From: Actinomycetota bacterium
GTDB taxonomy: Bacteria > Actinomycetota > Actinomycetes > Mycobacteriales > HKI-0501
NCBI GenBank assembly: GCA_030840805.1
Contig: JAVEDU010000108.1
Span: 1 to 35,872, forward strand
Length of the DNA stretch: 35,872 nt
Direction of reading: 5' to 3'
The notes under the pieces are model-generated. The model was given only the letters and a program-made list of their open reading frames with translations, was not told where the DNA came from and did no database searches. Positions 3,719-29,805 of the stretch are shown one piece after another. Position 1 is the stretch's first letter. Each line of letters begins with the position of its first letter. A program made the position numbers and the translations under genes.

Positions 3719-3763
3719 ACGGCGCCCGTTCGCGATCCTGCCCGGATCGCGGGCGGGCGCCGT
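3719..3763 (+). terminator. Terminator-like hairpin between rpmE and prfA
   Basis: A two-part stem: outer 10 bp (3719-3728 with 3754-3763), a 2x2 internal loop, then inner 8 bp (3731-3738 with 3744-3751) and a 5-base loop. It starts 8 bases after the rpmE stop. There is no T-run. Confidence 0.65.
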
Positions 3764-15821: not shown

Positions 15822-15882
15822 GTTGATCATGGGGTTTTCGGGAGGCACGCGGGGCGGTGGTGCCGACAACCCCATGATCGAT
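15822..15882. repeat. Degenerate palindromic repeat, TTGATCATGG family
   Basis: Arms TTGATCATGGGGTTTTCGG and its near-complement pair over about 18 bases with two wobbles and one mismatch. The 10-base core TTGATCATGG is the same as in the two 70-bp palindromes at 27881 and 28976, but the inner part differs. It is a diverged member or a related family. Confidence 0.55.
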
Positions 15883-27200: not shown

Positions 27201-27860
27201 GTGCGCCTGGTGATTGCTCGTTGCTCCGTCGACTATGTCGGCCGCCTGACCGCCCACCTTCCGACGGCCGTGCGGCTGCTCCTCGTGAAGGCGGACGGGT
27301 CGGTGTCGATCCATGCCGACGACCGCGCGTACAAGCCGCTGAACTGGATGAGCCCGCCGTGCAAGATCCTGGAGACCGACGGCGTGTGGCGGGTGGTCAA
27401 CAAGGCGGGCGAGCAGCTCGTGATCACCCTCGACGAGGTCATGCACGACTCGTCCCATGAGCTCGGCGTGGACCCCGGACTGGTCAAGGACGGCGTCGAG
27501 GCGCATCTCCAGGAGCTGCTGGCCGCCCAGATCGGCACGCTCGGGGACGGGTGGACGCTGGTACGGCGCGAGTACCCGACCGCGATCGGGCCGGTGGACA
27601 TCCTGGCGCGGGACGCCGCGGGGAAGACGGTGGCGATCGAGATCAAGCGCCGGGGCGAGATCGACGGCGTCGAGCAGCTCACGCGGTACCTGGAGCTGCT
27701 CAACCGGGATCCGCTGATCGCGCCGGTGGCCGGCGTCTTCGCGGCCCAGGAGATCAAGCCCCAGGCGAAGGTGCTCGCCAGCGACCGGGGAATCCGGTGC
27801 GTGACCCTGGACTACCAGGCCCTGCGGGGGCTGGCGGACGACGGCCTGCGCCTCTTCTAG
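27201..27860 (+). CDS. nucS: Mismatch-specific endonuclease NucS/EndoMS
   Basis: Cuts both strands at mismatches, the non-canonical mismatch repair of actinobacteria that lack MutS and MutL. 219 residues, normal. N-terminal DNA-binding domain, then a nuclease domain with D133 (G-P-V-D-I-L-A-R-D) and E147-I-K149 (A-I-E-I-K-R), the complete catalytic set. The C-terminus L-R-L-F resembles the sliding-clamp binding tail described in actinobacterial NucS. Family position a few genes after the atp operon is conserved in many actinobacteria. The stop is 20 bases before a 70-bp palindrome. Confidence 0.95.
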
Positions 27861-27880
27861 TTCCCTCGCGTGCCCCCCCT

Positions 27881-27950
27881 CCGCGTTGATCATGGACTTT
27901 GCAACAGAAACGCCCGCGTGTCGTGTTGCAAAGTCCATGATCAACGCGGG
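27881..27950. repeat. 70-bp palindromic repeat, copy 1
   Basis: The arms begin CCGCGTTGATCATGGACTTT and pair perfectly for 26 bases with the other end. A one-base bulge (extra C in the right arm), one mismatch and a short centre follow. It starts 20 bases after the nucS stop and ends 8 bases before the stop of the convergent DUF559 gene, so it could act as a bidirectional terminator. The right arm is identical to that of copy 2. Confidence 0.9.
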
Positions 27951-27958
27951 AGAGGCGG

Positions 27959-28876
27959 TCACGCGGCCACCGCCAGGGCGCGGCGGACCACCGAGACGAT
28001 GTAGCGCGGGCGGCGCGTGTCGTCCCAGGTGAAGCGCACGATGGTCCACCCGCTGCCGCGGAAGTCGTTCGCCCGCTCGCGATCCCGGTACGCCGCCGGC
28101 ACCGAGTCGTGGGCGTACCGCCCGTCGGCCTCCGCGATCAGGCGTCCACCGGTCCAGGCCAGGTCGCCGTAGCCCAGGACTGTTCCCCAGTGGTCGACGA
28201 CCGGCTGCTGGAGCGTGTCCGGCGGTACCCCGCCGTCGCAGCAGATCAGGCGCACCCGGGTCTCCAGCGGGGACTCCGCGCGGCCGTCGCACTCGGCAAG
28301 CCGCGTCCGGGCGGCCAGCACCCCGGGGCGGTGGGCCAGGAGCGCCTCGAACCCGGCGAGGTCGGCCTCAGTGAGGTGCCCGTCGTGCAGGGCCGCGTCG
28401 AGCATGCTCACGCCCTCGTACCGGTGGAGCCGCAGCAGGAGGTCGCCGACCGTCCACGGCGGCGAGGTGACCCGCATGCCGTCGACCGCCGTGACGTGCT
28501 CGGGCCGGACGGCCACCTGTCGGATCGACAGCCCCGGTTGCGCGACGACGGGCCACCCGGACGGCAGGGCGATCTCGACGGGGCCGGGCGTCAGGTCGAG
28601 CCCGCCGAGGCCCAGCAGGGCGGCGGCGCTGCGCCCGGACACGGCGCCGTCCGGCACGGTCAGAGCCGCGGCGCGAATCCAGGCCCGGTCGGGCACCTCC
28701 TGGTACAGCTCCGCATCGATGAGAAATGCACCGCGGAGCAGCCGCCTCCACTCACCGCGCCGTTGCCGGACCCAGATGTCCGAGCGGGAGAGGCCCGAAC
28801 GCAGGGCCTGGGCCTGGGTGAGGACGCCATCCTGGGCCTCGGCGGCCGCACGCCAGCGCTGGTTGTCGCAAGCCAT
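27959..28876 (-). CDS. DUF559 (Vsr-like) nuclease-fold protein with AbiEi-type N-terminal domain
   Basis: 305 residues. Residues about 8-55 look like the AbiEi antitoxin-type winged helix (G-V-L-T-Q-A-Q-A-L-R-S-G-L-S ... W-R-R-L-L-R-G-A-F). The middle part is variable. Residues about 200-290 form the DUF559 domain related to Vsr and PD-(D/E)xK nucleases: E201-S-P-L-E-T, D238 (G-Y-G-D-L-A-W), E249-A-D251-G-R-Y-A-H, then R-D-R-E-R ... G-W-T-I-V-R-F-T-W. The active-site residues are kept. The ATG at 28876 has no good ribosome binding site, and GTG 28897 in frame is an alternative. Two nearly identical palindromes flank the gene. Function of this class is not established. No adjacent toxin gene is seen. 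Confidence 0.85.
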   Translation of the reverse strand: MACDNQRWRAAAEAQDGVLTQAQALRSGLSRSDIWVRQRRGEWRRLLRGAFLIDAELYQEVPDRAWIRAAALTVPDGAVSGRSAAALLGLGGLDLTPGPVEIALPSGWPVVAQPGLSIRQVAVRPEHVTAVDGMRVTSPPWTVGDLLLRLHRYEGVSMLDAALHDGHLTEADLAGFEALLAHRPGVLAARTRLAECDGRAESPLETRVRLICCDGGVPPDTLQQPVVDHWGTVLGYGDLAWTGGRLIAEADGRYAHDSVPAAYRDRERANDFRGSGWTIVRFTWDDTRRPRYIVSVVRRALAVAA

Positions 28877-28975
28877 ACCGGAGAGCCTGCGGCCCACGGC
28901 GTGCGCTGTGCGGCGCCGGGGGAAAGCTGTGGACGGCGAAGCGACCTGTGGACGCGCGCCTCGCCTCGCCCCACA

Positions 28976-29045
28976 CCGCGTTGATCATGGACTTTGCAAC
29001 AGACACGCCAGCGTGTCGTGTTGCAAAGTCCATGATCAACGCGGG
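28976..29045. repeat. 70-bp palindromic repeat, copy 2
   Basis: Same length and orientation as copy 1. It differs from copy 1 only in the left arm near the centre (CAGACACGCC against CAGAAACGCC) and at one centre base. The same extra C in the right arm is kept. It lies 100 bases upstream of the DUF559 start and 17 bases after the stop of the ANTAR gene, so on the minus strand it could end that transcript. Confidence 0.9.
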
Positions 29046-29061
29046 AAAACTGGGACAGGAC

Positions 29062-29805
29062 TCAGCCGGTGCGCAGTTCGGCCGGGCGGCCCGCCGAGGC
29101 CGCCGCCACGACCTCCGCCGCGAGCTCCCGCAGCTTGCGGTTCTCGTGCTGCGACGCGCGGCGCAGGACGGCGAACGCCTCGTCCGACTCGATCGCCATC
29201 GTCGCCATGAGTACGCCCTTGGCCTGCTCGATCACCGCGCGGCTGTCCATCGCGCGCTCCAGCTGCTGGGACACCGCGTTCGCCCGGTGGTACAGCCGGC
29301 CGTTGGCGACCGCGACCGACCCCTGGGCGGCGAACAGCAGGACGACCGCCTCGTCGACCTCCGCGAAGCCGTGGTGGGCCTCGGAGTACAGGTTCAGCGA
29401 GCCGATGCCCTCGCCGCGCACGACGAGCGGCGCGGCGAGGAAGCTGTGGATGCCCGCGTGCTCAGCGGCCTCGGCGAAGGCGGGGAAGCGCGCCTGCGCC
29501 GTACCGGCGGCGACCCGCTGGACCGACCGGGTGCGGTAGGCCCGCAGGCACGGACCGTCGCCGGCGGCGTACTGCGCCTCGTCGACCGTGAGCGTCCGGC
29601 GGTCGGTGGCGGCGAAGGTGGTCGGCCGGCCCTGCTCGACCAGCGTCACGCCGGCGCTGTCGCAGTCCGGGATCGTCCGTGCGGCGAGGTCCGCGACCCG
29701 CTGGAGCATCCCCGTGAGGTCGACATCGTCCACGAGCAGCAGGGCCAGCTCGGTGATGGCATCGGACATCTCGTCCATCCGCGTCTCTGCCGGTTCGATC
29801 GTCAA
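29062..29805 (-). CDS. GAF and ANTAR domain response regulator
   Basis: 247 residues from TTG 29805. GAF sensor domain at about 20-170 (S-A-G-V-T-L-V, G-D-G-P-C-L-R-A, S-F-L-A-A-P-L-V-V, I-G-S-L-N-L-Y-S). ANTAR RNA-binding domain at about 178-236 (L-E-R-A-M-D-S-R-A-V-I-E-Q-A-K-G-V-L-M). ANTAR proteins act by binding paired hairpins in leaders to prevent termination. TTG is preferred because AGGAGG lies 6 bases upstream. ATG codons further in (M-D-E-M-S-D) are alternatives. The frame is open far upstream over the opposite gene, but that is antisense. Divergent from the double hydroxyacyl-CoA dehydrogenase gene. Confidence 0.9.
   Translation of the reverse strand: MTIEPAETRMDEMSDAITELALLLVDDVDLTGMLQRVADLAARTIPDCDSAGVTLVEQGRPTTFAATDRRTLTVDEAQYAAGDGPCLRAYRTRSVQRVAAGTAQARFPAFAEAAEHAGIHSFLAAPLVVRGEGIGSLNLYSEAHHGFAEVDEAVVLLFAAQGSVAVANGRLYHRANAVSQQLERAMDSRAVIEQAKGVLMATMAIESDEAFAVLRRASQHENRKLRELAAEVVAAASAGRPAELRTG

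Follow-up and report, generated by a model that had tools for sequence, protein, structure and literature searches.

A probable REP-like element system of actinobacteria in which dispersed palindromes bracket a nuclease gene

What links a single nuclease gene to the two near-identical palindromes that frame it? In the window (the whole stretch of 35,872 nucleotides of actinobacterial DNA analysed here), palindrome 1 lies downstream of the gene at 27881-27949 and palindrome 2 upstream of it at 28976-29044, neither being assigned to a strand. An earlier note, made from the letters of the window, had described two near-identical 70-bp palindromes around exactly one gene, with right arms identical over 35 bases and a one-base bulge kept in both copies. 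We confirmed the bracketing of one gene (27959-28897) and the bulge, which is on the same side in both palindromes (bases 27923 and 29018). The near-identity also stands, with differences at 2 of 69 positions, and the length is corrected to 69 bp and the identical stretch to the last 34 bases. The outer arms are 26 nt long and perfectly complementary, with 17 nt between them, and each palindrome is predicted to fold into one hairpin with the bulge base unpaired near the tip (z of -11 to -14, none of 200 shuffles as good). The hairpin of palindrome 1 has extra mismatches in its tip, and the tip of palindrome 2 (29002-29018, likewise unstranded) is formed by GACACGCC and its partner GCGTGTC(G). 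The feet of both are paired (CCGCG...CGCGG), and these two copies have no unpaired GTAG or CGTC. At a hairpin threshold of score at least 14 and span at least 40, set after a first look at 30 loci (L031-L060), the window holds four hairpins, and the palindromes are the strongest two; the other, weaker two lie at 3719-3763 and 15825-15879. Rfam models gave nine miRNA matches on the palindromes and an sRNA match in another place; none reached its curated score, and we set these aside as generic hairpin scores.

The bracketed gene is on the minus strand and encodes 312 amino acids from a GTG at 28897 (an alternative ATG start lies at 28876). It had been called DUF559/AbiEi-type, and Pfam models match the protein weakly, all below their cut-offs (MTES_1575 at 2.5e-4, AbiEi_1 at 2e-3, DUF559 at 3.4e-3, and AbiEi_4 at 9.7e-3). 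In a structure model built with 39 sequences (mean pLDDT 92.6, pTM 0.86), residues 10-204 (28286-28870, minus strand) resemble the AbiEi antitoxin Rv2827c (6y8q_A; Z 12.2, 184 residues aligned, rmsd 5.4). Residues ~208-312 (27962-28276, minus strand) resemble the catalytic domain of I-Bth0305I (3r3p_A; Z 12.4, 95 aligned, rmsd 2.6) and Vsr (1cw0_A; Z 10.4, 99 aligned, rmsd 2.4); further folds that VIA-align listed, such as XisH, TnsA, VRR_NUC and Hjc, score lower (Z 6-7). A sequence profile of 27 members matches 3hrl (1.1e-6), 3r3p (2.8e-4) and, weakly, Vsr (0.14). In the model as a whole, an AbiEi-antitoxin fold is thus followed by a homing-endonuclease domain of EDxHD/Vsr-like type. Three putative catalytic residues, E212 (28262-28264), D245 (28163-28165) and E256 (28130-28132, all minus strand), are invariant in 27 of 27 aligned proteins, and the same three together with D258 in 39 of 39. 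Vsr nicks T:G mismatches and is the partner of a cytosine methylase. For the window protein, a homing-type nuclease with a duplex dyad as its site is no less likely than a hairpin enzyme. A review (PMC3943268) describes I-Bth0305I as forming a dimer on its target, which is nearly 60 bp long; this is about the size of the palindromes and may fit the present system.

Palindromes of the same family are dispersed through the genome to which the window belongs, an assembly of 4.46 Mb in 111 contigs that is 95% complete. A genome-wide count, proposed in the earlier note as a check, gave 118 half-site matches when up to 3 mismatches were allowed (61 on one strand and 57 on the other; none for a reversed control pattern) and 49 complete palindromes of the form TTGATCATG-N30-55-CATGATCAA (control none), the latter possibly too low a figure since contigs that start with a half-site suggest that the repeats may break the assembly. 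A half-site was seen within the first 100 bases of contigs C8, C24, C89, C106 and C110 of this genome (G000). Among 17 distinct complete copies, the bulge base is kept in 16, as C in all of them, and arm columns 10 and 12 change on both sides together. None of the 17 is intragenic; eight lie between convergent genes, five between same-direction genes and four at contig or locus edges. The window gene is the one own-genome homologue of the protein at E<=0.01, and the bracketed unit is single-copy. No RAYT-type transposase (Y1_Tnp) was detected in this 95% complete genome, in a search that was positive for 5 of 14 control genomes.

Homologues of the protein (E<=1e-10) are widespread, being found in 98 of 121 genomes of the order, the own genome included. 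We analysed two sets of loci. The order set comprises 80 loci from 45 genomes, in stretches mostly of 16 kb; it leans to better matches because it was hand-picked from the matches listed, and it includes 26 of the 30 loci on which the hairpin threshold was set. The GTDB-species set, also of 80 loci, was taken later at the same threshold, and 11 of its loci have less than 350 bp of DNA on one side. One gene is present in both (L183 is L065), so that the 160 loci comprise 159 distinct ones. The earlier note had asked whether palindromes cluster beside DUF559 genes, and they do: they stand at both gene ends in 25 of the 80 order loci, at one end in 31 and at neither, above threshold, in 24, and the corresponding numbers for the GTDB-species set are 46, 20 and 14 of 80 (46, 19 and 14 of 79 without L183). 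Hairpin density in the order set is 4.25 per kb within 100 bp of the gene ends versus 0.03-0.08 per kb at 1-7 kb, and in the GTDB-species set 3.93 per kb within 150 bp, 0.88 at 150-300 bp and 0-0.1 beyond. Control genes of 0.6-1.4 kb at the same loci have hairpins on both sides in 4 of 474 and 3 of 255 cases and on one side in 84 of 474 and 87 of 255, some of the latter being the nuclease's own hairpins; a purpose-written gene caller underlies these counts and those of gene orientation and of genes inside the unit. The earlier note had weighed against its own reading a scatter of palindromes after unrelated genes with no link to DUF559 genes. The scatter is there, and the link to the nuclease gene is nevertheless strong.

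The two palindromes that frame a nuclease gene are similar. As a gapped flank-to-flank similarity score gave poor separation from the control (20 of 80 loci above the control's 99th percentile), we compared hairpin pairs instead. Left and right palindromes have a mean similarity score of 34.8 within loci versus 9.0 between loci (25 loci), a result reached in none of 10,000 permutations. The arms differ between families. The 8-mer GACACGCC ranks first in an unguided count: 10 of 81 flanking palindromes, at 9 of 56 loci, contain it exactly, where random stretches from these loci would give 0.16. It is missing from most families. The pairing was also set as a prediction: families with TTGATCATG were found by pattern first, and then beside the nuclease in two of the five genomes tried. 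In G012 (40 copies), the locus L146 is bracketed by that genome's palindrome, and of the two families in G079 (42 copies), one is found at L150 and the other at L160. The two homologues of G002 (5 copies) have other palindromes alongside, and the nuclease loci of G014 (2 copies) and G070 (4 copies) give no clear palindrome match. In the distant genome G115, 400 kb (8%) contain five such hairpins, few copies, two of which match palindromes beside its own nuclease genes and lie more than 165 kb from the sole profile-found nuclease in the stretch.

Some genomes encode many homologues (11-14 each in G079, G115, G033 and G008; 13 in G079 at E<=1e-3). In these genomes, the loci that show palindromes mostly carry different ones, a pattern of several nuclease-palindrome pairs per chromosome.

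In the window, the left neighbour is NucS (27201-27860, plus strand) and the right neighbour a GAF-ANTAR protein (29062-29793, minus strand), both outside the unit. The idea that NucS is part of the system did not hold: the window NucS has no tblastn match at E<=1e-20 in the 160 homologue loci, and we treat its position beside the nuclease gene as chance on that account. At two other loci, a gene adjoining the nuclease has hairpins at both of its own ends, a GDPD-family gene in L084 (6129-7454) and the gene at 6269-7483 in L097. PADLOC labels 26 of the 27 aligned proteins as AbiEi, and a Tsukamurella relative is annotated likewise, as would be expected if the gene belonged to an AbiE-type defence or toxin-antitoxin module whose palindromes mark self DNA. 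We regard such a module as most improbable, given that AbiEii was found neither among ten neighbours scanned at five loci nor beside the window gene, and that the units at eight loci examined contain no other called gene.

In the GTDB-species set, 43 of the 80 loci have both flanks in common, which places the nuclease at one old site in Micromonosporaceae. We distinguished three palindrome types: type A (TTGATCAAG...TTTGCGTC), type B (TTGATCATG...TTAGCGG) and type C (TTGATCATG...TTATTGCC, mostly with the GACACGCC tip). Both sides could be typed in 42 of the 46 two-sided loci of this set, and the sides agree in all 42; no further A, B or C palindrome was found within the flanks of the 43 syntenic loci. 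On the tree of the nuclease the type changes 3 times (minimum 2, shuffled mean 18.5), versus 17 times on the tree of the left neighbour gene and 15 on that of the right one. These trees comprise the 41 of 80 loci that have a type and both neighbour genes, with L228 on a long branch; for six loci that the pattern failed to type (L183, L188, L190, L195, L199 and L211), the label was assigned manually. Given that the palindromes and the gene lie within 1.2 kb, co-inheritance as a cassette alone explains the tree result. Between M. saelicesensis (type A) and M. noduli (type B), identity is 98-100% in the left flank, to within 50 bp of the palindrome, and 92-97% over the first kb on the right, versus 53-67% from palindrome to palindrome. 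The alignments show a cassette swap with its edges at the palindromes.

Linkage-free evidence comes only from the dispersed copies and from comparisons of single sites. Dispersed copies tend to match the type of the resident nuclease: AAG-type copies are the majority over ATG-type copies in 12 of 14 genomes with an A-type nuclease versus 5 of 19 with a B- or C-type nuclease (33 genomes; Mann-Whitney p of 1e-4, 0.0037 after subtraction of the two own copies, and 0.0018 without the M. saelicesensis group, values that serve as guides because the genomes are related). This count leaves out G062, which has another type, and G111, which is outside the 98 homologue genomes and has neither AAG- nor ATG-type palindromes. 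The own type is not in the majority in G090, G122, G129, G130, G131 (a tie), G138, G142, G028 and G037 (a tie); several of the mismatching genomes belong to the M. saelicesensis group, which has A and C copies whatever the present cassette. G083, with an A-type nuclease, has 18 AAG copies and 5 of C type, and G090 has no AAG copy.

For single sites, we compared 14 palindrome sites of M. alfalfae (the first 14 of 21 listed) with five close relatives. Of 52 alignable comparisons, 43 show a typed palindrome, 8 none (one of these, site 4 in G137, has a shorter palindrome) and 1 another hairpin. The type differs in 26 of the 43 typed comparisons and agrees in 17, with a difference at 11 of the 14 sites; site 7 contributes four borderline-hybrid scores as different, and without it the numbers are 22 of 39 comparisons and 10 of 13 sites. 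One further site is C, B or A depending on the species, and another is A in every relative aligned. Intermediates occur: in six cases, of which site 7 accounts for four, a B arm is paired with a C arm, and in two a C-type tip sits between A arms. At L320:14473-14530 and at site 14 (L318), an A-type spacer was seen by eye to be inverted in place between close species with collinear flanks. A GATCTTGCACTTT... family, which brackets another nuclease in Micromonospora humi (L077, in the genome of L065/L183), occupies two M. arborensis sites (L413 and L408) where M. alfalfae has C-type palindromes. At site 11, the element is present in three species and missing in three. The common sites point to new insertion being rare, and some of the type switching could be mimicked by independent insertions into favoured intergenic sites.

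The placement of the elements bears on two further explanations. Of 82 elements in Micromonosporaceae, 46 are convergent, 4 divergent and 3 intragenic, and the background is 41 convergent of 294 intergenic gaps of at least 60 bp in the GTDB-species loci. This excess between convergent genes (including the 8 of 17 in the own genome), as well as site positions that are often kept while the type changes, would suit bidirectional terminators kept by the host, the nuclease gene being merely one insulated gene. We think this unlikely, as the bracketing is specific to the nuclease gene compared with other genes, the palindrome type goes with the nuclease, and no intrinsic-terminator pattern with a T tract occurs in 27500-29500, a tract that may be missing from actinobacterial terminators. 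The palindromes could otherwise be operators through which the AbiEi-like part represses its own gene and a regulon. AbiEi binds inverted repeats in its own promoter, and residues 10-204 have the AbiEi fold; against this, a palindrome copy also stands at the 3' end of the gene, divergent placement is rare (4 of 82), and the nuclease triad is invariant, all of which makes an operator role quite unlikely.

The nuclease gene appears to be chromosomal. A search of 50,697 phage records with the window protein gave no match, and among 72,556 plasmid records the single match is to a Nonomuraea record of 11.85 Mb. Two other homologues have a few matches in plasmid records (L122 four and L104 two), from Tsukamurella (three records) and Collinsella (a 0.9-Mb record). 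Two of the Tsukamurella "plasmids", NZ_LR134451.1 and NZ_LR134463.1 (L444 and L445), encode tatB and dTMP kinase, or pdxS, and look like pieces of a chromosome; of these two regions, one is without a palindrome and the other has weak palindromes near both gene ends. The phage and plasmid results for the window protein, together with the single copy of the unit in the own genome and the site shared by 43 Micromonosporaceae loci, argue against a whole transposon in which the palindromes are the ends, the nuclease is the transposase and the solo palindromes are MITEs. Such a transposon would account for a bounded unit and for dispersed solo palindromes, and we hold it to be very unlikely; no target-site duplication was visible by eye at sites 9 and 11, compared with relatives that lack the element, where the flanks are low-complexity.

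The comparisons document bracketing, cognate types, a cassette swap and type differences at common sites. Our preferred reading, which we consider probable, is a REP-like element system of actinobacteria, in which palindromes maintained and converted by a nuclease bracket their own enzyme gene. The earlier likening of the layout to REP sequences and their RAYT enzyme is upheld by the dispersed copies, their clustering by homologous nuclease genes in other genomes, and types that follow the nuclease. In the proposed mechanism, the element is a palindrome of ~50-70 bp with variable arms and, in some families, the GACACGCC tip, dispersed mainly at gene 3' ends, and the gene between two copies would encode the cognate enzyme, with a putatively DNA-binding AbiEi-type part and an EDxHD/Vsr-like nuclease. 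A dimer may bind the dyad via its AbiEi parts, and the nuclease may cut near the palindrome centre. Repair from another copy would then overwrite the cut palindrome in place, which could leave hybrid arms, new arms round an old tip or inverted spacers, and repair may now and then seed a new site. We infer binding, cutting and overwriting from the domain make-up, the invariant residues, the fitting size of the dyad site and the intermediates. The palindromes would depend on the bracketed nuclease as REPINs are thought to depend on RAYT, the enzyme being of homing type instead.

More tentatively, and with somewhat less than even confidence, we propose a stronger version, a "homing palindrome", in which a dimeric AbiEi-EDxHD nuclease would cleave its own ~60-bp palindrome and repair would overwrite rivals genome-wide, so that families compete for intergenic sites and the winner is the cassette that holds the locus. 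If true, the system would resemble a gene drive whose targets are the intergenic palindromes of a single chromosome; it would be widespread in actinobacteria, under the labels AbiEi antitoxin or DUF559. The pairing points to a role for genes whose present annotation is DUF559 or lone AbiEi antitoxin, and since it recurs with different sequences in many actinobacteria, specificity, overwriting and co-evolution can be tested by comparison and at the bench.

How does this system compare with those already described? The protein shares the fold of residues 10-204 with the AbiEi antitoxin of the type IV toxin-antitoxin system AbiE (6y8q, Rv2827c), but has an extra nuclease domain and no AbiEii partner was found at the loci scanned. 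It shares the fold of residues 208-312 with the EDxHD homing endonuclease I-Bth0305I (which also gives a weak profile match, 3r3p at 2.8e-4) and with Vsr, which is likened to it in the catalytic fold alone. Unlike these, the enzyme appears to be chromosomal and neither intron- nor phage-borne, carries an AbiEi-like part and is bracketed by genome-dispersed palindromes. EDxHD homing spreads the endonuclease's own frame into sites without it; here we see a cassette swap and palindrome switching and no gene copy at a new site. Unlike an insertion sequence or MITE, the full unit occurs once in the own genome. In the open-access literature, we found no report linking DUF559 or AbiEi nucleases with dispersed palindromes, subscription papers being mostly outside this scope and a prior description possible; the terms RAYT, DUF559 and endonuclease are absent from a 2025 REP survey (PMC12306157). 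The enzyme-palindrome system looks undescribed, with an enzyme other than the known REP transposase.

Dispersed palindromes without a known mover are common in bacterial genomes, and the CGTC-tagged REPs, which "apparently lack a dedicated transposase" according to Di Nocera et al. 2013 (PMC3733652), are an example. The present elements are dispersed palindromes like these, but CGTC-tagged REPs are mostly alpha-proteobacterial (the word Actinobacteria is absent from the text of that paper), and their unpaired CGTC end is missing on the window's two copies. Here, the palindrome families have a dedicated enzyme of another superfamily. The closest likeness is to REP/REPIN-RAYT systems, which also have short dispersed palindromes that are mostly extragenic (49 copies in the own genome; intragenic in 0 of 17 own copies and 3 of 82 in Micromonosporaceae), a single-copy enzyme gene flanked by its own palindromes, and several enzyme-palindrome pairs per genome (PMC3116915). 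REPs are reported to sit at gene 3' ends (PMC3733652), and the convergent placement here agrees. The differences concern both partners: no Y1/HUH tyrosine transposase was found in the own genome, the enzyme being an AbiEi part with an EDxHD/Vsr-like nuclease, and the elements are single 69-bp hairpins whose type varies at the same sites across species; neither copy in the window ends in GTAG or CGTC at its foot. No homology of the enzyme or of the element to the REP pair was seen; the system works like a REP/RAYT pair and stands outside that class.
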